A DNA stretch of 31,228 bases from a virus, in IMG/VR virus record IMGVR_UViG_3300034374_005350, positions 1-31,228 of that record. One strand, given 5' to 3'. The position numbers were made by a program, and so were the translations under genes. The notes under the pieces are model-generated. The model made no database searches and had not been told where the DNA came from. It saw nothing but the letters and a program-made list of their open reading frames with translations. This document shows positions 3,060-16,202 of this stretch, piece by piece. Within the stretch, counting starts at the first letter, position 1; the number at the start of each line of letters is the position of its first letter.

Positions 3060-3286
3060 TTCCCAGGCACACGGAAGTTGTTGTCGTAATATTCTTTAGC
3101 CTCCACGTATGTACCATCTGATGAGTGGCCACGTTGGTAGGCGTTGATGATTAGGTTGCGTTCAACCTCTACCCATTCGTCTTTGTTCTTTAAGAACCCA
3201 GCGATTACATTCTTCTCATCGCTGTCCAGCATAGTCTTGTTGATGTTTTCAAGACGGCGGAATAACATTTGAATGGGCGTCTTCAT
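3056..3286 (-). CDS. Small hypothetical phage protein, 76 aa
   Basis: The product is helical and charged, ending in NLIINAYQRGHSSDG followed by AKEYYDNNFRVPGK. This 'INAY..G....AEEYY...F' ending resembles small conserved phage proteins of unknown function that I have seen near replication genes; I cannot name the family. It abuts the cyclotransferase-like gene (one-base overlap) and overlaps the downstream 56-aa gene by 4 bases, so it belongs to the same leftward operon. Confidence 0.65.
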   Translation of the reverse strand: MKTPIQMLFRRLENINKTMLDSDEKNVIAGFLKNKDEWVEVERNLIINAYQRGHSSDGTYVEAKEYYDNNFRVPGK

Positions 3287-3759
3287 CAGTACGTGTCGTA
3301 TAGGATTGAGTTCTCATCCATCGCATCATCGGGTCCGAAGTATACCCATGCTTCCATCTCGTGGTTGTCATAGCCATCCTCGGTCACGATGAACTTGCGC
3401 TTCCTGCGCGTGTACCAATCGGGGTGTCCCTCAAGTAAGTCCAACCTCTGTAGGATAAAGTCACTCACAAGGTAGAGTTCTACCTTCACATTGCTACCTA
3501 CGTTCGGCTTGTTGATTAAGAAAGGAAGACCCCAATTGCGAATGACCAAGGGGTACTTGTTCTTGGTAATCGCTTCACCTACGAACATCGCATCATGCAA
3601 CAGCGGATGGTTGCCCTTGCCACGCTTGAGCGTACCGTATACAGCGACAGGGTGTATTAGAATATGGGATTGTTTGGTATGACTACTCTGTCCATCCAGT
3701 TTTGTACGCCCTCTTTTGTCCCGGAGAAAACTATCATTCCCCTTCGTGATAACTGCCAT
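3286..3759 (-). CDS. Gamma-glutamylcyclotransferase-like (AIG2/GGCT) protein
   Basis: GGCT-like enzymes cyclise gamma-glutamyl groups to 5-oxoproline, releasing the attached amine. The substrate loop VAVYGTLKRGKGNHPLL lies at residues 38-54, GLPFLI at 77-82, and the catalytic-glutamate segment LDLLEGHPDWYTRR at 106-119, with E110 the expected acid. The C-terminus (EAWVYFGPDD) fits the family. The first 35 or so residues are not typical and overlap the 62-aa reading frame at 3657-3845 by about 100 bases. The true start may therefore be internal, for example the ATT codon at 3663 just before the conserved region. In phages and bacteria, GGCT-like proteins recur beside amidoligases and class II glutaminases, both present here about 5-6 kb upstream in the same orientation. 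Confidence 0.8.
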   Translation of the reverse strand: MAVITKGNDSFLRDKRGRTKLDGQSSHTKQSHILIHPVAVYGTLKRGKGNHPLLHDAMFVGEAITKNKYPLVIRNWGLPFLINKPNVGSNVKVELYLVSDFILQRLDLLEGHPDWYTRRKRKFIVTEDGYDNHEMEAWVYFGPDDAMDENSILYDTY

Positions 3760-3845
3760 TTCTTTTTGCTTTGATTGTAAATTATTTTGTAGTTGTTTGA
3801 AATGTTGTTCTTCTTGGTATTCAACTTGCTTTTCTTTGCTTCCAT
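3657..3845 (-). CDS. Small hypothetical protein, 62 aa, overlapping the GGCT gene
   Basis: The 62-residue frame has a Lys/Asn-rich start followed by a plausible small fold: YKIIYNQSKKKWQLSRRG, then an amphipathic helix (GVQNWMDRVV). A strand-turn-strand with 'W.L...G...F.GT' followed by a helix is a shape I have seen in tiny phage proteins, but I cannot name a family. It begins inside the 42-aa gene (25-base overlap) and runs about 100 bases into the annotated 5' end of the GGCT-like gene. If real, the GGCT start must lie downstream or translation must be coupled. Confidence 0.5.
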   Translation of the reverse strand: MEAKKSKLNTKKNNISNNYKIIYNQSKKKWQLSRRGMIVFSGTKEGVQNWMDRVVIPNNPIF

Positions 3846-3949
3846 TCTACATACATCTTCGCTGCTACTGCTACCCGTTGTGGCTTGAACTTGTACACTG
3901 AACGTAGCCTTGCGTTTGCTATACGCATGAACTGCTCCATGTCTTTCAT
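3821..3949 (-). CDS. Small basic hypothetical protein, 42 aa
   Basis: The frame starts MKDMEQFMRIANARLRSVYK and stops with TGA at 3821. Its ATG shares a base with the TAA of the nuclease gene upstream (TAATG), the usual sign of translational coupling in this genome. The product is helical and strongly basic toward the C-terminus (VEWKQRKAS). No family is recognised. Confidence 0.5.
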   Translation of the reverse strand: MKDMEQFMRIANARLRSVYKFKPQRVAVAAKMYVEWKQRKAS

Positions 3950-4347
3950 TACAATAGTGATTCTGCTTTGATTAATACACCAAGCGAAGTATCCTCATCC
4001 CCTCCTGGAACACCTATCGCTTCATGCCGTGTGCGACACAAATGCTTTAGGCGTTCCGTTGGTAGGGTGATGAAATACATGATGTCTTTCTCCTCCACTG
4101 TCACGTCTTCGTAACGATGGCGCAAACCATGCTCGGAGGCAGCGATAAGAATCCAATAGTCGGCTTCAGTACTCGCGATGCCCGACGGTTTACCACGGCT
4201 CTGATATTCTATGTAGAAGTTACCAGTCTTGTGTACGCCGAAGTCCATCTTAACCTCAACCGTTCTGCTTGTCAGCAGTTGGCCGATGATTATCTCGCTC
4301 ATCAGTCCGATGCGCAAGTCGTACTTGAAGTCGCTATTGTATTCCAT
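3949..4347 (-). CDS. PD-(D/E)XK nuclease-like protein, possible Holliday-junction resolvase
   Basis: The 132-residue product shows a compact PD-(D/E)XK arrangement: E18, then VEVKMD at 30-35 (E31, K33) after a beta strand, then TGNFYIEYQSRGKPSGI at 41-57 with E47, then ADYWILIAA. The 'TGN.(Y/F)IEY..RGKPSGI' block followed by ADYW is a signature I associate with a conserved phage nuclease family often annotated as endonuclease or resolvase. It sits directly after the SSB-like, exonuclease and annealing genes, which fits a recombination or DNA-repair role. Whether it cuts junctions or linear DNA cannot be judged from sequence. Confidence 0.68.
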   Translation of the reverse strand: MEYNSDFKYDLRIGLMSEIIIGQLLTSRTVEVKMDFGVHKTGNFYIEYQSRGKPSGIASTEADYWILIAASEHGLRHRYEDVTVEEKDIMYFITLPTERLKHLCRTRHEAIGVPGGDEDTSLGVLIKAESLL

Positions 4348-4652
4348 TAGAAGGGCAGGTCAGAGGTGGCTGCGCCTGCGTGCTGGTTCGCCTTGCTCTT
4401 GCTGTACTTGCTGTTGTCAGCGGAGCGAGGGTTGAATACGGATAAGAAACCGCTTCCGTCATTCTTGATAACGAAGTCAATGTTCACATTGCCAGAGCCT
4501 GTGACGTACTTCTTCAACTCATCAAGTTGTTCAACCTTGAATGACAGTGGGTATTTCTTAACGCCCGATTCGTAGGATTTCAACTCTCCTACATAACCAA
4601 TGTACACATCTTTCTTGTCCATTGCTTTTGATTTAGATTTCCCCTTGTACAT
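4347..4652 (-). CDS. Putative single-stranded DNA-binding protein
   Basis: The 101-residue product has beta-rich segments (VYIGYVGELKSY, YPLSFKVEQLDELKKY, VNIDFVIKNDGSGFLSVF) and a flexible Ser/Lys/Ala tail ending in SDLPF. A disordered tail with a terminal D-(L/I)-P-F is characteristic of SSB proteins, which use it to recruit partners. The gene lies between two nuclease genes and beside an annealing protein, as expected for an SSB. The core does not match bacterial SSB closely, so the call leans on tail and context. Met11 (position 4622), preceded by an A/T-rich stretch, is a likely alternative start and would leave 91 residues. Confidence 0.6.
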   Translation of the reverse strand: MYKGKSKSKAMDKKDVYIGYVGELKSYESGVKKYPLSFKVEQLDELKKYVTGSGNVNIDFVIKNDGSGFLSVFNPRSADNSKYSKSKANQHAGAATSDLPF

Positions 4653-5397
4653 AAAACTTGGATGACTCTCTGTTGGCCTCGCAGTAATCTTTGATTACCG
4701 AGATAGCCCTGGTCACCTTTCGTTTGCCGGAGTCAAGGGTTTCCTCCGATGCTTTGTATGCGGCTGGCAGGTAGGGGTATGCCTTCTCCTGCGCCACCCA
4801 ATAGAAGTCTTTGATACCGAACGCGAGAGTGTACAGATAGGCTTGCACATCATAGTCAAGCCATCGTACATCTCTACGGAATCCGCTAACGCTTCGTGTT
4901 GTCTTTAGGTCTGTGATGAACCCATCACCAAGCACATCAAGGAATCCACGTACGGGAATTTCCTCGCCATCAATCTCTAACTTCTGATGAAACTCTACTT
5001 GGTATTCACCCTGCAAGTAAATGTTTAAGATACCACAGTCATCAAGCCTGGTAATCATATCAATAGCCTGTACGTAATCCTCCATTGACAGCAGTTGCTT
5101 TCCTTCGGATACAGTTTCTTTCCAGTCTTTATACTGCTTGGTAGCCCGTGGGTTCTTCCCGCCTATCTCTTTCACAATCTCTGCGTCATCAAGGACAAAG
5201 AAGCGCGTCTCAAATTCTTCGGGCGTGAATAGCAGCACATCGTATGCGCTACCAAACGTGAGGGCCTGCGACTCTTTGCGCAACTTGCCCTTCATGTACA
5301 GTTCAAACAGCGCCATGTCCTGCAAGGCGTACTTGATGGAGGAGTAAGAGAGGTAGGGCTTACCCGTCCTCTCTACTATTACATTAAACCAACTCAT
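4633..5397 (-). CDS. PD-(D/E)XK exonuclease (RecB/ExoVIII-like)
   Basis: This is probably the 5'-3' or processive exonuclease partner of the annealing protein. The 254-residue product shows the phage/ExoVIII PDDEXK plan: a helical N-terminus with SYSSIKYALQ and LTFGSAYDVLLFTPEEF (47-62), substrate strands around 132-150, GFLDVLGDGFITDLKTT at 151-167 (metal ligands D154 and D163, catalytic K165), and the trailing Q motif DYDVQAYLYTLAF (181-193). Length and motif spacing match the family. It follows the annealing gene with a one-base overlap and overlaps the SSB-like gene by 20 bases if that gene uses its upstream start. Together they form a Red-like recombination cassette. Confidence 0.82.
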   Translation of the reverse strand: MSWFNVIVERTGKPYLSYSSIKYALQDMALFELYMKGKLRKESQALTFGSAYDVLLFTPEEFETRFFVLDDAEIVKEIGGKNPRATKQYKDWKETVSEGKQLLSMEDYVQAIDMITRLDDCGILNIYLQGEYQVEFHQKLEIDGEEIPVRGFLDVLGDGFITDLKTTRSVSGFRRDVRWLDYDVQAYLYTLAFGIKDFYWVAQEKAYPYLPAAYKASEETLDSGKRKVTRAISVIKDYCEANRESSKFYVQGEI

Positions 5398-5915
5398 CAG
5401 ACAAGTTCAAACAGTTCTTTCAACTTGTCTTGGGTAAATGCACTGTCGTACTTGTACTTGGCGACGACCTTATCGTATCTGTCCTTGCGTTCTGGTCTGT
5501 TCTTTCCTTCTTTGATATAGCCAACAGCCTTATCAAAGACATCGGTGTCGGCTGGTATGTCTTGCTTGGCGATAGCCATCTCTACCTCCTCGGCAGATGC
5601 AATGCTATCCTCCACGCCAATACCAAGGAAGCCCAAGGCACGGCCAACAGCGGATGTTTCACAGTTCTCTACGAAAGAAGTCTTGTTAATCATTGAGGAA
5701 GTGCGGTCTTCCTGCGCCATTCCTTGCGCTATAATTTTACCCTCTGCATTACGTATTGTTGCACGTATTACGCATGACGATTCATCAAGGTGCAACAGTT
5801 CTGTTTCAATGCTAAAGCCCTGGTAGTCAGGCAGTTTGCGGAACGCAATGATGCGCTCGTTCACAAGGACATAATCTTTGCCCTTGATTTTCATTGTCTT
5901 TAATTGATAAGCCAT
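5397..5915 (-). CDS. Single-strand annealing protein (ERF/Rad52-like)
   Basis: The 172-residue protein has N-terminal beta strands and then the segment FVENCETSAVGRALGFLGIG (residues 80-99). This resembles the 'T.AVGRAL.FLG.G' signature of ERF-type phage annealing proteins. The helical C-terminus is Lys-rich. Such proteins coat resected single strands and pair them with complementary DNA. The downstream gene is a PDDEXK exonuclease, followed by an SSB-like protein and a second nuclease, the usual company of annealing proteins. The family call is by motif and context. Confidence 0.75.
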   Translation of the reverse strand: MAYQLKTMKIKGKDYVLVNERIIAFRKLPDYQGFSIETELLHLDESSCVIRATIRNAEGKIIAQGMAQEDRTSSMINKTSFVENCETSAVGRALGFLGIGVEDSIASAEEVEMAIAKQDIPADTDVFDKAVGYIKEGKNRPERKDRYDKVVAKYKYDSAFTQDKLKELFELV

Positions 5916-5925
5916 ATGTATTGAA

Positions 5926-6078
5926 TTAAGATTTGGTTTTCGCTAATGTACGCTGTTTATTTTGAATGAACAAATCGTTGTTAATCTTTGCGAATCCCTT
6001 GTCCATCTCTCGTGGGTTAGCGTAGTGGATGCTACCTATGTGGAGCATCCAATCGCCGTATGACATTCGCTTCTTCAT
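5926..6078 (-). CDS. Small basic hypothetical protein, 50 aa
   Basis: The frame starts MKKRMSYGDWMLHIGSIHYA and ends at the TAA at 5926, just before the annealing gene. The ATG overlaps the stop of the upstream Api92-like gene (ATGA), which suggests coupled translation. The product is basic with a helical C-terminus. No family is recognised. Confidence 0.5.
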   Translation of the reverse strand: MKKRMSYGDWMLHIGSIHYANPREMDKGFAKINNDLFIQNKQRTLAKTKS

Positions 6079-6812
6079 TGCTTAATGGATTCAAGTTTCT
6101 TAATCACCTCGCTGTCGGTAACAAGACTGCTCTCACTGTACCAGTCCGAGTAGTTGTGCCAGCCCACCTCGTATGTGCCCATGTTGTTCTCGTACTCTTC
6201 TTCAAGGTATACGTACTGCTCTTGCACGAACTTACCTTCACCAACAGAGGACGGGATGTCCGTGTCAAGGTATGCCCAGTACTTGAACTTGGGGATGTCC
6301 CACTCTATAGTGCTAACGCATTCGCCATCTTCAAATATGGCTTGACCTCCGAAGCCTTGCTCCTCTTCCCATATGTAATCTGCATTTCCAAGTTGGGACA
6401 GCAGTTCGCCCATGATGTCATCAGCAACGGGTGACCATGCGCTTTGAAAGCGTAGCGTAAGGTCATCGGCTACCGCATCATACTGAATGTCGCGGTCACC
6501 CCACTTGGTGCCCCAGTACATGTATGCCCACTCATACCAGTTCTCTGCGTTGTATTTGGCTTTGAGTTCATCCACCATCTCTTGCGTTTGGAAATGCTCG
6601 GTGTAGTATTGGCTCTCTTCGCTCGTAGTTCCAAGCGCTTCACGTATAGCGTAGTCTTCTTTGCTAATGATTTTGTTAGGGGAATTCGTATTGCGAATCT
6701 CCTGCGGCATAGGCATGTAGTAATTGCATATACCACCCGCCTCTATAATCTTCTTAATCAAGTCCTCATTCTTGGAGGACGTTTTGATTGTTGTGTAAAC
6801 CCAGTTCGGCAT
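6075..6812 (-). CDS. Api92-like protein (DUF1281-type)
   Basis: The conserved protein starts at the ATG at 6812 (MPNWVYTTIKTS); 15 extra in-frame residues upstream look non-conserved. Api92/DUF1281-like proteins open with MPNWC.N.. and contain an 'NWGTKWD' block; here the counterpart is YWGTKWGDRD. They also share F.T.WSPP-like strands; here FQSAWSPVADD. The 245-residue length fits. The family is scattered through phages and plasmids and has no established biochemical function. It is coupled by ATGA to the downstream 50-aa gene and follows the 63-aa gene by 7 bases. Confidence 0.72.
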   Translation of the reverse strand: MPNWVYTTIKTSSKNEDLIKKIIEAGGICNYYMPMPQEIRNTNSPNKIISKEDYAIREALGTTSEESQYYTEHFQTQEMVDELKAKYNAENWYEWAYMYWGTKWGDRDIQYDAVADDLTLRFQSAWSPVADDIMGELLSQLGNADYIWEEEQGFGGQAIFEDGECVSTIEWDIPKFKYWAYLDTDIPSSVGEGKFVQEQYVYLEEEYENNMGTYEVGWHNYSDWYSESSLVTDSEVIKKLESIKQ

Positions 6813-6819
6813 CGTTAAT

Positions 6820-7011
6820 TTATTTATCGTTATCAGTTTCTTTCTCCAGGTAATCAAGCGCAGCCATCAGTGCGTTCTTTATATCCTGCTTGTTATTCAT
6901 AAACATCACACCCTTGATGATGCCAAGTAGGTATCCGTACTTGTATGACACAGGCCGGGTAGAACCTTGGGCAGCCGGGTGTTCTTTGAAGTAATCAAAG
7001 TGTTCGCTCAT
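6820..7011 (-). CDS. Small hypothetical protein, 63 aa
   Basis: No family is recognised. The N-terminal half contains YKYGYLLGIIKGVMF, a short hydrophobic helix that is amphipathic rather than clearly membrane-spanning. The C-terminal half is a charged helix (KNALMAALDYLEKETDNDK). It lies 7 bases upstream of the Api92-like start and after a gap of about 84 bases, so it may be first in its sub-operon. Confidence 0.55.
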   Translation of the reverse strand: MSEHFDYFKEHPAAQGSTRPVSYKYGYLLGIIKGVMFMNNKQDIKNALMAALDYLEKETDNDK

Positions 7012-7095
7012 TTCTCTTTGGTGTTAAAGGTTTCATTATTGCATATCGCAATACACGATATTTTACACTTTGAGTGCTTTTCGTTTGACACTTTG

Positions 7096-7230
7096 TTAAT
7101 CATCTCTATCTAAATCATTGTAGTCTTCGTAGTCGCAGTTGCTACATACCCCGCGACTCATCACGGAGTAACAGTACTCGCACCTATCCGGCGCATCATA
7201 TGGGTCAATCGCCCCGAACTCTGATGACAT
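7096..7230 (-). CDS. Zinc-ribbon microprotein, 44 aa
   Basis: The frame opens MSSEFGAIDPYDAPDRCEYC and has two paired cysteine knuckles, CEYC (17-20) and CSNC (29-32), spaced as in small zinc ribbons, with a very acidic tail (DYEDYNDLDRDD). Its ATG overlaps the TAA of the 152-aa gene upstream (TAATG). Metal binding is likely from the cysteine spacing. An acidic zinc-ribbon microprotein could bind a host protein, but nothing in the sequence names a partner. Confidence 0.6.
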   Translation of the reverse strand: MSSEFGAIDPYDAPDRCEYCYSVMSRGVCSNCDYEDYNDLDRDD

Positions 7231-7688
7231 TAGGCCATGAATTTAGTGGGTGCATCAAGCCACCCGTTATCACAATAGATATTCTTAATAGCACGCACAG
7301 CACGAAGGAACACGGCAAGCGTTTCCAACTCGCGCAACTCTGCGCCCATAAGGGTGTTGCTATCGTACATAGCAAGCACCTTGTCGTTGTAGTACATGAC
7401 TACACCATCTGCCGATAGGTCAAGAAGGTGTAGTGCATCACTACTGAGCCACAACTTTGTCAGCACATTCTTAACAGCGATTGTAGCCGAGTCATCTTCC
7501 TCTCTTGTACGCAATAGAATAGCCATAGCGACTCGAACCTCATGCATATCAAGTGACGTATCTAATACATGAACCGACCGCGAGGGTTGAGAAGTAAACG
7601 AGAAGAAGGAACGGGCCATAGAGTACAACCCACGCAAAAATTTCCATGAGGAAGTGAGGCTTTCGTTTAGGTTTGAAATCGTTTTCAT
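7230..7688 (-). CDS. Hypothetical protein, 152 aa
   Basis: I do not recognise it. The N-terminus is Ser/Phe-rich and the middle is helical (VRVAMAILLRTREEDD, then AVKNVLTKLWLSSDALHLLDLS). There is a beta hairpin (GVVMYYNDKVLAMYD) and a C-terminal helical pair (RELETLAVFLRAVRAI). It is linked by start/stop overlaps to the genes on both sides, which argues that it is translated. Confidence 0.6.
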   Translation of the reverse strand: MKTISNLNESLTSSWKFLRGLYSMARSFFSFTSQPSRSVHVLDTSLDMHEVRVAMAILLRTREEDDSATIAVKNVLTKLWLSSDALHLLDLSADGVVMYYNDKVLAMYDSNTLMGAELRELETLAVFLRAVRAIKNIYCDNGWLDAPTKFMA

Positions 7689-7876
7689 TGTGCATCTTTA
7701 TAGTTTTGAAGCGTTGATATAAGGGCAACCTCTAATGCGTCTATCTTCTGCATCAGTACAGTTGCCTTGATTTGAATGAGGGAATTGTCCATTGTGTTGG
7801 CGTAGTCAAGGACGACCTGTGCGGCCGCCCTCATACTACCCAGGTCACTCCCTATCTGTTGAACGACCTTACTCAT
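7685..7876 (-). CDS. Small helical protein, 63 aa
   Basis: The product is almost entirely alpha-helical with heptad-like spacing of Leu, Ile and Val (VVLDYANTMDNSLIQIKATV), consistent with a short coiled coil. No family is recognised. It overlaps both neighbours by 4 bases (ATGA-type), so it is part of a run of coupled genes. Confidence 0.55.
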   Translation of the reverse strand: MSKVVQQIGSDLGSMRAAAQVVLDYANTMDNSLIQIKATVLMQKIDALEVALISTLQNYKDAQ

Positions 7877-8403
7877 ACAGCACCAAGGATAACGTCAAGG
7901 TCATCTACTGATGCCTCATACTCATCCAACTGTTCCATGTACGTATCGTACTGCGAGGCCAGTTCATCCACAGTCTTCGGCTCAAGTGCAGTATACACAC
8001 CCTTGCCGTTGAACCTACGCACAAGCGACATCACGTCGCCATCTTGGTTGATGAATGCGTAGTCATTTCCCAACAGTTCAACAGCCTTCTCGCTGTTGCT
8101 TAATGGCCTAATGATGACCTTGCTAAACTCATCCTTGAGTGTATCGGATATGTTGAACAGCATCTCTCGCCTTACGCGCGGTTCATCCGTTACATACAGC
8201 ACCTCCGTGCCGTCTGGTACGTACCGTGTAGCAAGTTCTGTACGTACAAGTTGACGTGCGCTTGCCTCCGATTCTGCGTAAGCCATCAGTGTGGTTACGC
8301 TTGGCTCTCCTTGTGGGGCTACTCTGTTCTTCACCCCACGGCTTCCCTCTCCGGTAAACGGATTGGGGATAGTGATAATAAATTGCTTCATGTCCATGAG
8401 CAT
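7873..8403 (-). CDS. Hypothetical protein, 176 aa
   Basis: No family is recognised. It begins with a possible beta strand (MKQFIITIPNPF). Met5 at 8391 is an equally good start. A central mixed region (VLYVTDEPRVRREML) and an acidic helical C-terminus (YDTYMEQLDEYEASVDDLD) follow. A small alpha/beta fold is plausible. It is the first gene after a non-coding gap of about 80 bases with a GC-rich hairpin and is coupled to the 63-aa gene downstream. Confidence 0.58.
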   Translation of the reverse strand: MLMDMKQFIITIPNPFTGEGSRGVKNRVAPQGEPSVTTLMAYAESEASARQLVRTELATRYVPDGTEVLYVTDEPRVRREMLFNISDTLKDEFSKVIIRPLSNSEKAVELLGNDYAFINQDGDVMSLVRRFNGKGVYTALEPKTVDELASQYDTYMEQLDEYEASVDDLDVILGAV

Positions 8404-8457
8404 AATGTATTAGGCGTGTGCAGGTATCCGGTCATACCTACTCACCGGTTGATTGCC

Positions 8458-8476
8458 TACCCGGAGCCGGCGGGTA
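8458..8476. repeat. Intergenic hairpin
   Basis: TACCCG and CGGGTA form a perfect 6-bp stem around a 7-base loop in the 80-base gap between two leftward genes. There is no T-run on either side, so it is not a standard intrinsic terminator. An mRNA-stabilising or processing role is possible. Confidence 0.4.
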
Positions 8477-8483
8477 TTTCATG

Positions 8484-8744
8484 TTATTCAGGTAACAGTT
8501 TTATAACCTCATCAAAGATTATCCCTTCGGAATTGTACCCTTTGATGTGGCCTTCATGAAATCCGTGGATTTCAATCCCGGCACTCTCAAGCATTGTAAT
8601 ATCCAAGCCCAAGTTTTCCTTCACGAATTCCAAAGCATCTGCTTCAGTCATGAAGAACATTACATTCCCATTGTCTTTTAGCACATACTCATAGGGGTTT
8701 ATGGATATGCCGTTTATGTGTCGTCTAATTGAATACAGAGCCAT
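8484..8744 (-). CDS. Hypothetical protein, 86 aa
   Basis: A small alpha/beta product: NPYEYVLKDNGNVMFFMTEA, then a helix (DALEFVKENLGL) and a C-terminal strand-helix. The 'L.D.G.VM.F.T..DA..F' pattern recalls small phage proteins in which a strand pair precedes a helix; I cannot name the family. It overlaps the upstream 98-aa gene by 20 bases and ends 8 bases before the hairpin at 8458-8476. Confidence 0.6.
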   Translation of the reverse strand: MALYSIRRHINGISINPYEYVLKDNGNVMFFMTEADALEFVKENLGLDITMLESAGIEIHGFHEGHIKGYNSEGIIFDEVIKLLPE

Positions 8745-9021
8745 TGCTTCTTGATTTAATAATTTCTATACGCAGAGCGAACGCACTCTCTCGTTGGAAT
8801 ACAGCCATGTACTCACCCTTGATAAGTTGCGTCCGTCCACCAATCTGGTTAATTCTTTTCCTTGCAATGTTAAAGGCATCAGGTCGTTCAAACTCTGACA
8901 CTCTCAACACGCTTGACCAAGGCGCAGCGAGGCGTGATGCCCCGCTACCCTTGCTTACGCCCATTCGTATGATGGTGAACTCCTTCTTGAAGGCCGACAC
9001 CGGAACTTTAGAACAAGTCAT
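8725..9021 (-). CDS. Hypothetical protein, 98 aa
   Basis: The start is placed at the ATG at 9021 (MTCSKVPVSAFKKEF), which gives a 14-base overlap with the glutaminase gene upstream; a longer form from 9063 would overlap by 56 bases. The product is basic with alternating strands (FTIIRMGVSKG, RIEIIKSRSNG) and one central helix (FNIARKRINQIGG). No family is recognised. Immediate proximity to the amidotransferase makes it a possible accessory of that pathway, on position alone. Confidence 0.5.
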   Translation of the reverse strand: MTCSKVPVSAFKKEFTIIRMGVSKGSGASRLAAPWSSVLRVSEFERPDAFNIARKRINQIGGRTQLIKGEYMAVFQRESAFALRIEIIKSRSNGSVFN

Positions 9022-9928
9022 CAGCCGAAGATTTAAAGGTGTCACTATCGTAGTCGTACTCATCCCACAATTTCATCACGTCATCAACGGCCTCGGGTAT
9101 ATAGCAGTAGCACTCGGTGCATTCTGCGTCATAGTTAACAGCGACTGCCTCCTTACATTGGGGACAGTGGTACATTCTTTCTGTTGCTTGTAGGTTGGAA
9201 TGGTACATTCCATCCTTGCCTCCCTTGACAAAGGAGTCGGTATACTTGGAAGGCCAAACGGACTGTTGCTTGTTGCCTCCGTCCCATCCACCTGTCCATG
9301 CGTCCAGGTCGTAGTCATCATTCGTGTCCTTGTACACAGCGGTACTGCCGTAGTAACGCACAGCCTTGCTGTGGCTGTCATTGCTGAACCAATTCTCGCC
9401 AATCCATTGGCCCTTGTCCTCATTGAAGATGCGGAAGTCACCGGTGCTGTCAAGGAACACCAACTTGTTAGACACACCAAGGTACATATAGATAGCATCC
9501 TCCACGAAGGGAATGTCAAGCATCTCGCACGTGGTCATGCCGGGCATAGACGACAGCAGTTCGGTGAACTCTGCCGTGTCGCTCTTGTCCTTACTGCCGA
9601 AGCCTGTGATGACACCATTGTGGATAAGACCAAGGTCGGGTGACACAAAGAACGGGTGTAGGAACTCATCGGTGAAACCGTGAGTCGCAATGCGGAAGTG
9701 CAACAGCATAGGCACGTCACCCATGCTTGACTTGATGTCCACGTAGCGTTGATAGAACTTGTCAAAGTTCTGGGAACTGTTGACAAAAGAGTCATTGCCG
9801 AACTTCTCGGCAACAAGAACACCATCGGATAGGTACAGCATACCTGCACCATCGTCATTGTTGTTCCAACAATTTTGCAGTTTTTTCTTGGGCAACTGCT
9901 TACCGCCATTCAAAATCGCAATACACAT
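9008..9928 (-). CDS. Class II glutamine amidotransferase (Ntn glutaminase) with C-terminal zinc ribbon
   Basis: The start at 9928 gives MCIAIL: Met removal exposes Cys2, the nucleophile of Ntn-type glutaminases that release ammonia from glutamine. Further family motifs in order: HFRIATHG at 77-84 (R79 binds the substrate carboxylate), LIHNGVITGFGS at 101-112 (N104-G105 oxyanion hole), and SDTAEF at 116-121 (D117). The domain spans roughly residues 2-200. A second half carries CPQC (255-258) and CTEC (270-273), a probable zinc ribbon, then an acidic tail. No synthetase domain is fused, so a separate acceptor enzyme is expected. The gene directly upstream, an amidoligase separated by 63 bases and one hairpin, is the obvious candidate. 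Confidence 0.88.
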   Translation of the reverse strand: MCIAILNGGKQLPKKKLQNCWNNNDDGAGMLYLSDGVLVAEKFGNDSFVNSSQNFDKFYQRYVDIKSSMGDVPMLLHFRIATHGFTDEFLHPFFVSPDLGLIHNGVITGFGSKDKSDTAEFTELLSSMPGMTTCEMLDIPFVEDAIYMYLGVSNKLVFLDSTGDFRIFNEDKGQWIGENWFSNDSHSKAVRYYGSTAVYKDTNDDYDLDAWTGGWDGGNKQQSVWPSKYTDSFVKGGKDGMYHSNLQATERMYHCPQCKEAVAVNYDAECTECYCYIPEAVDDVMKLWDEYDYDSDTFKSSADDLF

Positions 9929-9948
9929 AGGCAATCGGGTATTGTGGT

Positions 9949-9971
9949 AGGTGGGGCATAGCACCCCACCT
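9949..9971 (-). repeat. Hairpin between amidoligase and glutaminase genes
   Basis: AGGTGGGG and CCCCACCT pair perfectly (8 bp) around a 7-base loop in the 63-base gap between the two genes. No T-run follows on the coding strand, so read-through is expected. The hairpin may protect or process the message and set relative expression. Confidence 0.5.
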
Positions 9972-9991
9972 CACCGGGTTAAACTAAATTC

Positions 9992-11647
9992 TTATCGGCG
10001 AACCAACGCTTCACTCTGAAGGTGGTCGTTCGTACTGAAAGCATCAGTAAGTCGGGTGAAACCGTAGGTTACTGCGGGCAGTAAGGTTTCAACCGGTACA
10101 CGCTTACGCTTACTGGTGGTGATGAAGGTCTTGAACAAGACACCCTCACCCTTTGTACCTACCATGTAGGTATTGAACAGGTCATCAGCGAACTGTGCAT
10201 ACATAGAAGTGATGCGCAGAATCTTGTCATCGCTGTACACCTTGGAAAGGTGACGATACAACTTACTCTTGCTGTTGGTCAGCATACGAAGTATGGCCAT
10301 CGGTGTCGCACCCGGTGTCATTTCAGTGACACCCTCACACATGATACGCACCAGGTCACGACGCCATAGCAACGTAGTCACGTCGGGAACGGCAGAGAAG
10401 ATGCGGAACTCTACGACACGACCACGAACGGCAACGGCTTGGTACTTGCCGCCATTCTTGTATGCGTCAATAGTTTTCTTGGCGTGAGAGTAGTCACGTG
10501 TCATACGACCGGGGTACAGCGCAAGGAGCAAGGGTATCCACCCTTGAACCTTGTTAAAGATTTGCTCTGAACCCATATTGGAGTGGCCAAGATTGATATG
10601 ACCACCACAACTACGTGAGTAGTCACCGTTGATGTGCGTTCGTACAACAGGGTTTTCAACCCCACTACGCTTGTCCTTCTCAAGGGCATCGCCATACAAG
10701 GCAAAGACCGGGCTAACGAACTCATAGCCGGAGTAGTCGCAAAGCGAAGAGTCGGACTCCCGCGCCCACAAGGTGTAGTCACAGTCGTCAAGGTCATACA
10801 TATCAAGCGCACCCTGGTCTTCCTTCTCTACCTCAAAGCCAATAGTGAAGCCGACGTTATACTTTGAAGCCTCGTCCATCGTGTGGCGTGGGCCATCGTG
10901 GTATTCGTGACGCTGCTCACGTGGCTCCTCATCAAGGTGGTACTCACCATCTCTATCCCAATGGAAGATGCAGTCACCAACGTCATCGTAGTGGTACCAA
11001 AGGCCATCGTCCTCGCAATATCTACCATGGTCATGGTAGTCCATCTCACCCTCGTGACATCCGCTCTCCATGTAGAGCAAGTCAAAGTGATTTTTGTACA
11101 CAACGTCACCATCAACCACCTCAACGAAGTTGTCCTCATTGTACTCACTGCGGAGAACGACTACCTCGGTCTTTGAAGAACCATAGTTACATGACAGCGT
11201 ATGGCGCAAGTCAGAACGGCGTATACGCACCGGGCCTACCTGTTCTACCTCATCAAGTTTGGCTAACATACCCTCGTGTCCCGAAGGGAAGGTCAGCCGA
11301 ATGTAGTCACCCAAGTCATCATCGGCAACCACATTGCCGTTATAGTCAAGAGCCTCTATCTTTCCGTCATCATCACGACCGGAAATAAGCCACTCTTGCG
11401 CCCATGTATACTGCATAGCGTCCTGTACGGTACGCATATTGTCCGAAGGACAAGTAAAAATCTCAAGCCGATAACGGAGTTGAGTGTAATCTACCACGTT
11501 TCTCACGCGATATGTCGCGCCAGTGACTTGTGATGCTTTCCCCATAGTGTCGTTAAGGAACAAGCCACCGGAGCCACAATGTGTTTCCCACGTCATCGGT
11601 GACAATGGCGTGATGCGAACTATGTCGCCTACATTATACAACTGCAT
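9992..11647 (-). CDS. Amidoligase (glutamine-synthetase-like COOH-NH2 ligase)
   Basis: Amidoligases of this fold form amide bonds between a carboxylate and an amine using ATP. In numbering from the ATG at 11647 (551 aa): an SH3-like barrel start (QLYNVGDIVRITPLSP, 2-17); a His/Cys/Asp-rich segment at about 197-250 that may bind metal; then the ligase core, with GFTIGFEVEKED (266-277), GYEFVSPVF (307-315), CGGHINLGHS (347-356), YPGRMTRDYSHAKK (378-391), a KY at 401-402, and VVEFRIFSAV (411-420) with RR at 429-430. These correspond to the acidic metal/ATP-binding and Arg positions of the Amidoligase_2 family. Other starts are possible (ATG at 11722, TTG at 11809). It is followed by the glutaminase, which could supply ammonia or cleave a gamma-glutamyl product. 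Confidence 0.85.
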   Translation of the reverse strand: MQLYNVGDIVRITPLSPMTWETHCGSGGLFLNDTMGKASQVTGATYRVRNVVDYTQLRYRLEIFTCPSDNMRTVQDAMQYTWAQEWLISGRDDDGKIEALDYNGNVVADDDLGDYIRLTFPSGHEGMLAKLDEVEQVGPVRIRRSDLRHTLSCNYGSSKTEVVVLRSEYNEDNFVEVVDGDVVYKNHFDLLYMESGCHEGEMDYHDHGRYCEDDGLWYHYDDVGDCIFHWDRDGEYHLDEEPREQRHEYHDGPRHTMDEASKYNVGFTIGFEVEKEDQGALDMYDLDDCDYTLWARESDSSLCDYSGYEFVSPVFALYGDALEKDKRSGVENPVVRTHINGDYSRSCGGHINLGHSNMGSEQIFNKVQGWIPLLLALYPGRMTRDYSHAKKTIDAYKNGGKYQAVAVRGRVVEFRIFSAVPDVTTLLWRRDLVRIMCEGVTEMTPGATPMAILRMLTNSKSKLYRHLSKVYSDDKILRITSMYAQFADDLFNTYMVGTKGEGVLFKTFITTSKRKRVPVETLLPAVTYGFTRLTDAFSTNDHLQSEALVRR

Positions 11648-11691: not shown

Positions 11692-11804
11692 TAGTGGACT
11701 GCTTGGTCACGAACCAACGCATAGCATACTCATTGTCTAACCTATAACACACAACGCAGTGTGAGTACCTATGGGCAGTCCGTTTATTCGGTGTGGTCAC
11801 CACC
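11692..11804 (-). promoter_or_regulatory. Structured leader element, copy 1 (upstream of amidoligase)
   Basis: On the minus strand the element opens with GGTGGTGACCACACC, then GGACTGC, an interior of about 70 bases, then TGGTTCGTGACCAAGCAGTCC. GGACTGC (11775-11781) pairs with GCAGTCC (11696-11702). Inside, CATAG/CTATG and TACTCA/TGAGTA stack, with a CACAC/GTGTG hairpin, so a branched fold is possible. The flanks are nearly identical to copy 2 at 12213-12300 while the interior differs. It lies between the promoter-like block at 11840-11901 and the amidoligase ATG. It may be an RNA regulator or a protein-binding site. Upstream in-frame starts would make its 3' part coding. Confidence 0.6.
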
Positions 11805-11839: not shown

Positions 11840-11901
11840 CAAAGTAATGTCACCAATGTTACTTGAATGTTGTGTCAATGTTATTAAATCGTTAAGTTTT
11901 A
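11840..11901 (-). promoter_or_regulatory. Promoter-like block A with AACATT repeats
   Basis: On the minus strand, AACATT occurs three times at exact 11-base spacing (ending at 11855, 11866 and 11877), followed by TTACTTTG (11847-11840). The last differs from the Bacteroidota -7 box TAnnTTTG at one base. The 33 bases at 11869-11901 match 13024-13056 at 31 positions. Transcription from here would read the copy 1 leader and the amidoligase. The repeats look like activator or repressor sites on one face of the helix. Confidence 0.55.
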
Positions 11902-11914
11902 ACAAGTTAAAACT
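11895..11914. repeat. AT-rich hairpin upstream of promoter block A
   Basis: AGTTTTAAC and GTTAAAACT form a 9-bp stem with a 2-base loop, just after the stop of the 43-aa gene. A matching hairpin with the same outer bases but another loop lies at 13050-13069 beside promoter block B. It could end upstream transcription or form part of the regulatory site; no clear U-tract follows. Confidence 0.45.
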
Positions 11915-11918
11915 CATG

Positions 11919-12050
11919 TTACGCGCGTGTCATACGTGTACGTACATATGTATGTACATATGCCGTGAGTACAGCCATGCCTACGACCATGCCCGTCCCT
12001 ATACCCATGACGGCTAATGGGTTTGCTACATTCATACTTAATTCGTACAT
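11919..12050 (-). CDS. Small membrane protein, 43 aa
   Basis: The frame opens MYELSMNVANPLAVMGIGTG and continues through a Gly/Met/Val-rich hydrophobic run to about residue 36 (one predicted transmembrane helix, residues 11-36). It ends with a basic tail (RTRMTRA), which predicts the tail inside. Its ATG lies one base after the stop of the 53-aa gene. Function is unknown; single-span microproteins of this kind often act on host membrane proteins or lysis, but no evidence picks either. Confidence 0.55.
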   Translation of the reverse strand: MYELSMNVANPLAVMGIGTGMVVGMAVLTAYVHTYVRTRMTRA

Positions 12051-12051
12051 A

Positions 12052-12213
12052 TCAATTCAACAGCGATTTAATTAGTCCAAGGTCAACAGTTCCGTACTTG
12101 TCATGCACCTTATTCAGGTACGTCTGGGCAGTAATGAACTCGGTCATACTGCGGGGGTTCTGGTACGCCACAAGTGCTTCACGAATGGCGTCAATTTCAG
12201 TTTTCACTCTCAT
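12052..12213 (-). CDS. Small helical protein, 53 aa
   Basis: The frame begins MRVKTEIDAIREALVAYQNP and ends in TGA at 12052. It is charged and helical; no family is recognised. Its ATG lies immediately 3' of leader element copy 2, at the position where copy 1 has ACG instead of ATG. The in-frame codons just before the ATG, reading RWFVTKPST, match RWFVTKQST at the same place in copy 1, so a non-AUG extension is possible. Confidence 0.55.
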   Translation of the reverse strand: MRVKTEIDAIREALVAYQNPRSMTEFITAQTYLNKVHDKYGTVDLGLIKSLLN

Positions 12214-12300
12214 AGTGGACGGCTTGGTCACGAACCATCGTACAACAGGGCATAGTTATGCCCTTTGTAGGCCGTCCGTTTTTGGGGTGTGGTCACCACC
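12213..12300 (-). promoter_or_regulatory. Structured leader element, copy 2 (upstream of 53-aa gene)
   Basis: On the minus strand: GGTGGTGACCACACC, then GGACGGC, an inner hairpin, then TGGTTCGTGACCAAGCCGTCC. GGACGGC (12271-12277) pairs with GCCGTCC (12217-12223). Copy 1 has GGACTGC/GCAGTCC, so one pair changes from G-C to T-A on both sides. The inner hairpin at 12241-12269 has TACAA/TTGTA and an 8-bp stem AGGGCATA/TATGCCCT with a 2-base loop. The compensatory change favours a conserved RNA or DNA fold over chance similarity. Confidence 0.6.
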
Positions 12301-12314
12301 CATTCCCATAAGTC

Positions 12315-12994: not shown

Positions 12995-13056
12995 CAAAGC
13001 AATAGCATCAATGTTAAGTGGAAGTTGTGTTAATGTTATTAAATTGTTAAGTTTTA
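12995..13056 (-). promoter_or_regulatory. Promoter-like block B with AACATT repeats
   Basis: On the minus strand this holds the same 33-base segment as block A (13024-13056, two differences). AACATT ends at 13032 and 13010 (22 bases, two helical turns) with a degenerate copy between. TTGCTTTG follows (13002-12995), again one base from TAnnTTTG and again followed by a purine-rich start region. It would drive the 96-aa gene cluster. Duplication suggests that the two leftward units are co-regulated. Confidence 0.55.
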
Positions 13057-13069
13057 CATTCGTAAAACT
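13050..13069. repeat. AT-rich hairpin upstream of promoter block B
   Basis: AGTTTTAC and GTAAAACT form an 8-bp stem around ATTC. It is the counterpart of the hairpin at 11895-11914: same outer bases, different inner pairs and loop, with pairing preserved. Confidence 0.45.
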
Positions 13070-13279
13070 CTACGTATGAGCGTGTTACACAGGCACACAC
13101 GCGCGCTGGGAGGGTGATACCCTCCCTCCCTAATAACTTATCTTACCCTTTTCCCCGTACGTGTGAGGTGTGATGAGGGCCGACCGAGAAAGTCCCCTCG
13201 CCCGTTGAGCAAGGCATTGCCTTGCGAAGGCATAGGCGTAGCCCGGACAGCGGACACACACGCACCTTGATTCCGAAGG

Positions 13280-15533: not shown

Positions 15534-16202
15534 CTACAGCGACTTCAGCATTTGAATCATCTCTGGCTGTGGGAAGATATCAATCTTGTCCTTGCGGATA
15601 GAGTTATGGGTATATACACCTTCCACACCCTTGAGGGCATCCATAGATACGTTCCACATATCCTCCTCACGGTAGTCCAATGGAATGCCGTAGTGGTCGT
15701 TCCAGTATTTAAGGAGGTTCTCCACGCTGCGGATTTGCTCATCCGTATAGCGGTGGAAGTAACGATGGCCCTTGTACTTCTCTTCTAAGGTGCATACATC
15801 TTCTTTAGCTACCTCGCGGTTTACGTAGTTGTAGTACTTATCGCCTTTCTTCTCAAGGTGTCCCCATGCGCATATCTCTACACCAATAGAAATCTTGTCA
15901 AGCTTTTGATAGGGGATGTCGTAGGCATCAAAGATTACCTGACGTGCACCAAGGTGATAGGCCCAGTACTTGGAGCTGAAGCCCTGAACAATACGTCCGT
16001 CTCCCTCCTTGGCTCCCTTTCCGGAGATACATACGCATGTTGCAATACGACCACGAGAGTCAGCATCCCACTGGCGGAAGGTAGATACGCCACTAGCGTT
16101 GCCCGCTGTATGGTGTAGATATATTTGCTTCTTGGGAGACTCTTCTTTGATATATTCGTTTGAAGAGAACTCTACCTGTAGGATGTCTTTTAAGAAACTC
16201 AT
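15534..16202 (-). CDS. N-acetylmuramoyl-L-alanine amidase (Amidase_2 endolysin)
   Basis: A zinc amidase that cuts the bond between muramic acid and the stem peptide, releasing virions. The 222-residue product has the Amidase_2/PGRP core: IYLHHTAG at 27-34 (zinc His30 or His31), KYWAYHLG in the 70s-80s, ISIGVEICAWG near 104-114, YTDEQIRSVENLLKYW in the 150s-160s, and VYTHNSIRKDKIDIFPQPEM at 196-215 (zinc ligands probably H199 and D208, with catalytic-region K). No signal peptide and no separate cell-wall-binding domain are seen, so it would need a holin. A holin-like gene lies downstream. Its ATG overlaps the stop of a 43-aa basic gene (ATGA). Confidence 0.88.
   Translation of the reverse strand: MSFLKDILQVEFSSNEYIKEESPKKQIYLHHTAGNASGVSTFRQWDADSRGRIATCVCISGKGAKEGDGRIVQGFSSKYWAYHLGARQVIFDAYDIPYQKLDKISIGVEICAWGHLEKKGDKYYNYVNREVAKEDVCTLEEKYKGHRYFHRYTDEQIRSVENLLKYWNDHYGIPLDYREEDMWNVSMDALKGVEGVYTHNSIRKDKIDIFPQPEMIQMLKSL

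Follow-up and report, generated by a model that had tools for sequence, protein, structure and literature searches.

The window examined here, a stretch of 31,228 bases that is the full IMG/VR viral record IMGVR_UViG_3300034374_005350 (the record is itself a fragment), carries three genes on the minus strand of its leftward arm, encoding an amidoligase (AML), a class II glutaminase (GAT) and a γ-glutamyl cyclotransferase (GGCT). Phage sets of these enzymes were reportedly noticed more than ten years ago, with a cell-wall or peptide-tagging role proposed. A sequence-only reading of this DNA had placed the three open reading frames (ORFs) in these families, an assignment that the reading frames, profiles and folds bear out. 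The features are listed below, with the kind of evidence in brackets.

9992..11647, minus strand: AML, Amidoligase_2-type (glutamine-synthetase-fold) carboxylate-amine ligase (ORF, motifs, profile comparison, model)
9008..9928 (ATG at 9928), minus strand: GAT, stand-alone class II (Ntn) glutaminase of 306 residues with N-terminal Met-Cys2 (ORF, invariant residues, profile, model)
9110..9166, minus strand: zinc-ribbon-like C-terminal CxxC...CxxC of GAT (sequence)
3286..3759, minus strand: GGCT, GGACT/AIG2-type γ-glutamyl cyclotransferase of 157 residues with Glu110 at the catalytic position (Pfam, alignment)

AML is 551 residues long when read from the ATG at 11647, and longer in-frame starts lie at about 11722 and 11809. 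Its catalytic core spans approximately residues 262–450 and is preceded by a β-rich domain (100–240), for which a fold search resolved no fold. Taken alone, the AML sequence matched no Pfam family at E values up to 1, being too divergent for a single-sequence scan, and a PHROG scan likewise gave no match, so profile–profile comparison and the predicted fold were used instead. In hhalign, the alignment of the AML clade (A8) matched an established Amidoligase_2 alignment (A9, composed of the ctgrD200, LUZ24, RIO-1, phiEco32 and Marvin proteins) with a probability of 97.8 and an E value of 1.2e-12, confirming the expectation that the amidoligase core would align with the family. The ctgrD200, LUZ24 and RIO-1 proteins pass the cut-off of Pfam Amidoligase_2 (PF12224), with the Marvin protein just under it. 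Among 61 AML sequences, 12–67% identical to that of the window, residues E272, E274, D299, G307, E309, G348, H350, R381, E413 and R415 are invariant, and the glutamine synthetase (GS)-type motifs GxExE, D(G/S)S..GxE, CGxH and ExR are invariant or conserved in more than 90%. In the AlphaFold2 model (pLDDT 83.6), residues 262–449 superpose on human GS with the highest score (Z 9.6, root-mean-square deviation 3.7 over 164 residues), the matches listed all belonging to the GS superfamily; fold matches, Foldseek's among them, comprise glutamine synthetase, YbdK (which we take to be a glutamate-cysteine ligase), PafA and glutamate-cysteine ligase. Judged by alignment and model, AML is a divergent member of the Amidoligase_2 family.

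The single-sequence Pfam score of GAT is weak (GATase_6, E 0.022), whereas a profile of its relatives matches the GlmS glutaminase in the PDB with an E value of 4e-6. Invariant residues in 57 GAT sequences include M1, C2, N24, G27, G29, R79, T82, G84, H91, P92, H103, N104, G105 and D117; the alignment with GlmS spans R79 to G105 and pairs R79, T82, N104 and G105 with R73, T76, N98 and G99 of GlmS (numbering counted by hand). The GAT model is matched by Foldseek to the GlmS glutaminase 1xff with a probability of 1.00, also resembles PurF, and has EgtC as its top VIA-align match (Z 13.4), tied with GlmS (Z 13.2). Because the catalytic and glutamine-site residues are invariant, GAT appears to have retained a pocket for free glutamine or a γ-glutamyl group, and both AML and GAT look active, with their catalytic residues intact. 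The zinc ribbon that had been ascribed to GAT is present in the window as two CxxC motifs at the C-terminus, but it is not a universal feature, at least two such C-terminal motifs being found in 37 of 57 homologues. GGCT scores 71.9 bits against Pfam GGACT (PF06094; cut-off 22.8, E 8.9e-20), and in an alignment that also includes mouse GGACT its Glu110 falls on Glu82 of human GGACT, presumably the catalytic residue.

Association of the three genes across phages

Two scans were made, one seeded with AML and one with GAT, and the partner gene was then sought with hidden Markov models. In the AML-seeded scan, 32 of 35 loci had room downstream, and in all 32 the next gene, in the same orientation, was GAT; in the GAT-seeded scan, 75 of 80 loci had room, and AML lay directly upstream in 74 of the 75. 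Some contigs were counted twice across these loci, and independence is better judged by clusters: the pair was seen in 38 AML clusters at the 50% identity level, in most cases with an overlap or a gap of some tens of bases. Exceptions to the order were second AML copies (AML-GAT-AML, AML-AML-GAT) and contig ends. Doubled amidoligases occur in L064–L068, L027, L063, L114 and L121, in the arrangements AML-GAT-AML, AML-GAT-AML-GAT and AML-AML-GAT. Clustering of all ORFs lying up to 6 kb from AML, in 39 phage groups, put AML and GAT in every group and the runner-up family in 6. AML and GAT are a near-obligate pair, kept far beyond chance across very different phages.

GGCT is an optional partner of this pair. 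It is found in all of G001–G009 of the window clade (the G010 contig ends early), 6–9 kb from AML and amid recombination genes; between GAT and GGCT in the window lie putative Erf-, exonuclease- and single-strand-binding-protein-like genes (labels assigned here). In the OM43-like contigs L073, L080, L083, L108 and L112 it comes immediately after GAT, and in the environmental podovirus ctfjg026 (L012 20929-22146) a 405-residue GAT-GGCT fusion, with GGCT on the C-terminal side, stands beside an AML (GATase_4, 6e-5 at 57–97; GGACT, 7.5e-18 at 167–273). No GGCT turned up in Marvin, ctgrD200, MEP402 or many other contigs that have AML and GAT. The functional linkage claimed for the three genes is thus upheld: AML and GAT nearly always co-occur, and GGCT shares a protein with GAT in ctfjg026, neighbours it in the OM43-like contigs and occupies the same arm in LUZ24, phiEco32 and RIO-1.

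These patterns bear on the idea that the genes are independent auxiliary metabolic genes, for nitrogen or glutamate recycling, that merely share an early arm. The distance of GGCT from AML in the window clade and its setting among recombination genes are consistent with it, and the amidoligase and glutamine amidotransferase (GATase) have been listed as auxiliary metabolic genes (PMC10580990). Independence would not lead one to expect the fixed order and spacing of AML and GAT in 38 clusters, nor the GAT-GGCT fusion. Furthermore, when 84,980 species of bacteria and archaea were scanned with a pattern built from a narrower GAT alignment, one GAT relative came up, a distant one in an Oscillospiraceae metagenome-assembled genome where no AML was recognised, which is unlike a freshly borrowed metabolic gene. 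We regard independent genes as an improbable explanation.

The neighbourhood also bears on peptide tagging, in which a small phage-encoded peptide would be attached to host or virion proteins. AML shares its fold with PafA, the ligase of pupylation, and the sequence-only reading had named small genes near the pair as candidate carriers or targets. Those candidates fail, since no third gene travels with AML and GAT: the 98-residue gene that overlaps the end of GAT is present only in the nearest relative (L002), the 44-residue zinc ribbon gene has no homologue among the relatives compared, and no third family exceeds the 6 of 39 groups given above. No small gene near the pair qualifies as a carrier, and nothing linked to it resembles a tag, which weakens peptide tagging to the point where we hold it to be decidedly improbable; a substrate that is host-encoded or a small molecule is more economical than a phage peptide tag. 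The commonest neighbour of the pair after AML and GAT themselves (L022 13324-13863, six phage groups) looks by eye like a membrane-anchored cell-wall hydrolase.

Relation to described phage cassettes

A seven-gene 'peptidoglycan modification cassette' has been described in RIO-1-like phages and hypothesised to serve superinfection exclusion (PMC5498523), the same gene set is listed for a LUZ24-like phage (PMC3890496), and PF12224 and GATase genes have been reported in OM43 phages, where the hypothesis was repeated (PMC10580990). The cassette of LUZ24, phiEco32 and RIO-1 comprises an amidoligase, a glutamine amidotransferase, a COOH-NH2 ligase, an ATP-grasp ligase and GGCT. Like the window, all three phages have AML, GAT and GGCT on the same arm, and the profiles built here match all three proteins; the order is AML, GAT, ATP-grasp, GGCT in LUZ24 and phiEco32, while in RIO-1 all are present but rearranged.

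The window departs from this arrangement in that neither the COOH-NH2 ligase (phrog_3815) nor the ATP-grasp ligase (phrog_2599) was detected in it, in 13 viral relatives, or in MEP402, ctfjg026, ctgrD200 and Marvin, whereas both were found in the positive controls LUZ24, RIO-1 and phiEco32. Fragmentation of the window is not the whole reason for the absence, as several of the 13 relatives are 53–82 kb long. PF14395 was set aside as too insensitive, having missed RIO-1. Since these two ligases were not detected, the window set is, as far as profile searches tell, a reduced variant of the described kind of cassette. A similar adjacency of AML and GAT is seen in the OM43 (Methylophilales) phages MEP401/MEP402 and in Mycobacterium phage Marvin, whose AML is about 19% identical to that of the window and whose GAT is 36% and 27% identical, respectively. 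The kind of system is already known; the present data add that its core of AML and GAT is near-obligate, that GAT and GGCT are fused in one phage, and that the window clade has a reduced variant.

Proposed reaction and its rivals

In our estimate there is an even chance that AML and GAT are the two subunits of a single glutamine-dependent amide synthetase; the near-obligate pairing and the invariant active sites favour it. GAT, with Cys2 as the nucleophile, would hydrolyse free glutamine to glutamate and ammonia, and the ammonia would pass from GAT to AML, whose GS-type active site would phosphorylate a carboxylate with ATP and, by capturing this ammonia or else a small amine, convert it into an amide. 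GGCT, as an optional accessory, would release γ-glutamyl groups as 5-oxoproline. No gene beside AML and GAT encodes the substrate, which is therefore probably a host molecule; the leading candidate would be a carboxylate of a cell-envelope peptide, and the purpose may be to change the wall of the infected cell, for example against competing phages. The MurT/GatD system offers an analogy, although it is cellular and built from other families, a Mur ligase and a class I GATase (the class to which GatD presumably belongs). PMC3267633 describes MurT/GatD of peptidoglycan as a glutaminase with an ATP-dependent carboxylate-activating partner.

The main rival to the amide synthetase, which we consider rather unlikely, is a γ-glutamyl handle: AML would add a γ-glutamyl group to an amine (of a metabolite, a peptide or a protein lysine), and GAT and/or GGCT would strip it off in a later step, glutamate serving as a transient protecting or activating group. 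The model for such a scheme is EgtA/EgtC of ergothioneine synthesis, which we take to be a glutamate-cysteine-ligase-type enzyme with a γ-glutamyl hydrolase of class II GATase fold. EgtC is the best structural match of the GAT model, if tied with GlmS, and YbdK and the Pup ligase PafA are among AML's top Foldseek hits; GGCT, too, has γ-glutamyl compounds as its substrates, and in ctfjg026 it forms one protein with GAT. The ligase of the EgtA/EgtC system, however, belongs to a family other than that of AML, and no ergothioneine genes were recognised in the examined part of the window. Many phages keep AML and GAT with no detected GGCT, and a GAT that merely undid the product of AML would be futile without a third enzyme, for which no gene common to the phage groups was found. 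The amide synthetase is preferred to the handle because GAT is present in nearly every AML phage and GGCT is optional.

Several points nevertheless weigh against an amide synthetase. GS-fold ligases usually use free ammonia or an amine, we know of no proven amidotransferase that combines a GS-fold ligase with a class II glutaminase, and no experiment on the function or biochemistry of the AML-GAT pair was found in the literature searched. The GAT model fits a γ-glutamyl hydrolase as well as it fits GlmS, the ammonia route leaves GGCT unexplained, and the fusion of GGCT to GAT favours the γ-glutamyl handle. The cell-wall target is itself taken from published hypotheses (PMC5498523, PMC10580990).

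The core of the problem is the pair of AML and GAT, kept by nearly all such phages, with GGCT optional and the ATP-grasp and COOH-NH2 ligases dispensable, and a set stripped down to two proteins with intact active sites could ease direct expression and assay. If it is true that the pair amidates envelope peptides, this would be a new route by which a phage rewrites the wall of its host.

The amidoligase leader, the host and other genes of the window

Upstream of AML lies an additional, separately testable RNA element, a tRNA-like leader, with a second copy further upstream and further examples in other contigs.

11840..11847, minus strand: Bacteroidota-type −7 promoter-like box TTACTTTG upstream of AML (TAnnTTTG in most relatives)
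11790..11804, minus strand: conserved leader hairpin P0 (GTGGnGACCAC) of the AML transcript (conservation)
11696..11781, minus strand: tRNA-like module of the AML leader, a 7-bp acceptor-like stem closing a long arm, plus a T-arm (TTGG-TTCGTGA-CCAA) (covariation)
12285..12301, minus strand: hairpin P0 copy B, upstream of a 59-residue ORF
12217..12277, minus strand: tRNA-like module copy B, whose stem GGACGGC/GCCGTCC differs by compensating changes from the GGACTGC/GCAGTCC of copy A
L016 9833-9938, L022 9810-9913, L047 6783-6865 and 7746-7853: further hairpin and tRNA-like modules

The exact TAnnTTTG box is present in 9 of 11 distinct AML leaders and a relaxed form in the other 2, compared with 1.6% (exact) and 5.8% (relaxed) of random windows. 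A 96-nt direct repeat, 75% identical between 11840-11935 and 12995-13090, holds the promoter-like box before AML in one of its copies. Between the two leader copies lies a small ORF (12052-12231, motif KVHDKYGTVD), whose C-terminal motif also occurs in L007, L016 and L026.

Across 15 variants of the tRNA-like module, pairing holds in 97% of the cells of the stem and T-arm, and both sides have changed in 9 of 11 pairs, in an alignment that was cut by hand and leans towards the structure, and of whose variants the check script failed to recover one (L025B); shuffled or slid controls fall far short of this covariation. An automatic scan of 121 AML-bearing loci recovered the module ahead of AML in 31 of them, every one of which falls in the window clade by AML similarity. 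ARAGORN calls a tRNA-Gln on the L016/L053 copy, and a tRNA-Tyr(GTA) inside the second-copy leader of L022 (9040-9190) and L024 (8821-8970). The hairpin motif GTGGnGACCAC occurs in 41 stretches, some of them contigs without AML; the count from a 16-base motif scan is about the chance expectation for a large collection, and only recurrence upstream of AML was used. In the AML-bearing contigs L182 (2360-2481) and L165 (2973-3094) a twister-sister ribozyme comes next after the hairpin, scoring 38.4 and 37.9 bits against a gathering threshold of 34, and the near-identical leaders of the two may represent one event. An Rfam search with the window leader element gave no family match. A resemblance to YrlA in L047 (E 0.16) was not accepted, and pattern matches in L172, L183 and L187, which look like tape-measure-type coding sequence, were discarded.

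The leader is read as a separate, lineage-bound element outside the enzyme system. A role of the tRNA-like RNA as the substrate of AML is disfavoured, and any direct biochemical link between this RNA and the ligase is very unlikely indeed, because AML lineages outside the window clade lack the RNA. At somewhat less than even odds, in our estimate, the leaders belong to a new class of phage RNA, in which the hairpin GTGGnGACCAC and an interchangeable module (tRNA-like, real tRNA-Tyr or twister-sister) head the AML-GAT operon and cut or stabilise early mRNAs. If true, early mRNAs would be cut or stabilised at defined points through host tRNA-processing enzymes or self-cleavage, with the window clade carrying the tRNA-like version before its amide synthetase genes.

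The large terminase of the window shares 49% identity with its ctfjg026 counterpart and 42% with the terminases of Flavobacterium elemo phages; the remaining matches are mostly to Cellulophaga, Tenacibaculum and Maribacter phages. On these matches the host of this marine phage is likely flavobacterial. Two further genes were noted. A probable endolysin, an N-acetylmuramoyl-L-alanine amidase (Amidase_2, E 1.8e-11), is encoded at 15534-16202. On the same arm as AML, GAT and GGCT, positions 1760-2425 encode a phage sulfotransferase (Sulfotransfer_2, E 1.7e-6; galactose-3-O-sulfotransferase in PHROG), with a homologue in L009 that is 27% identical.

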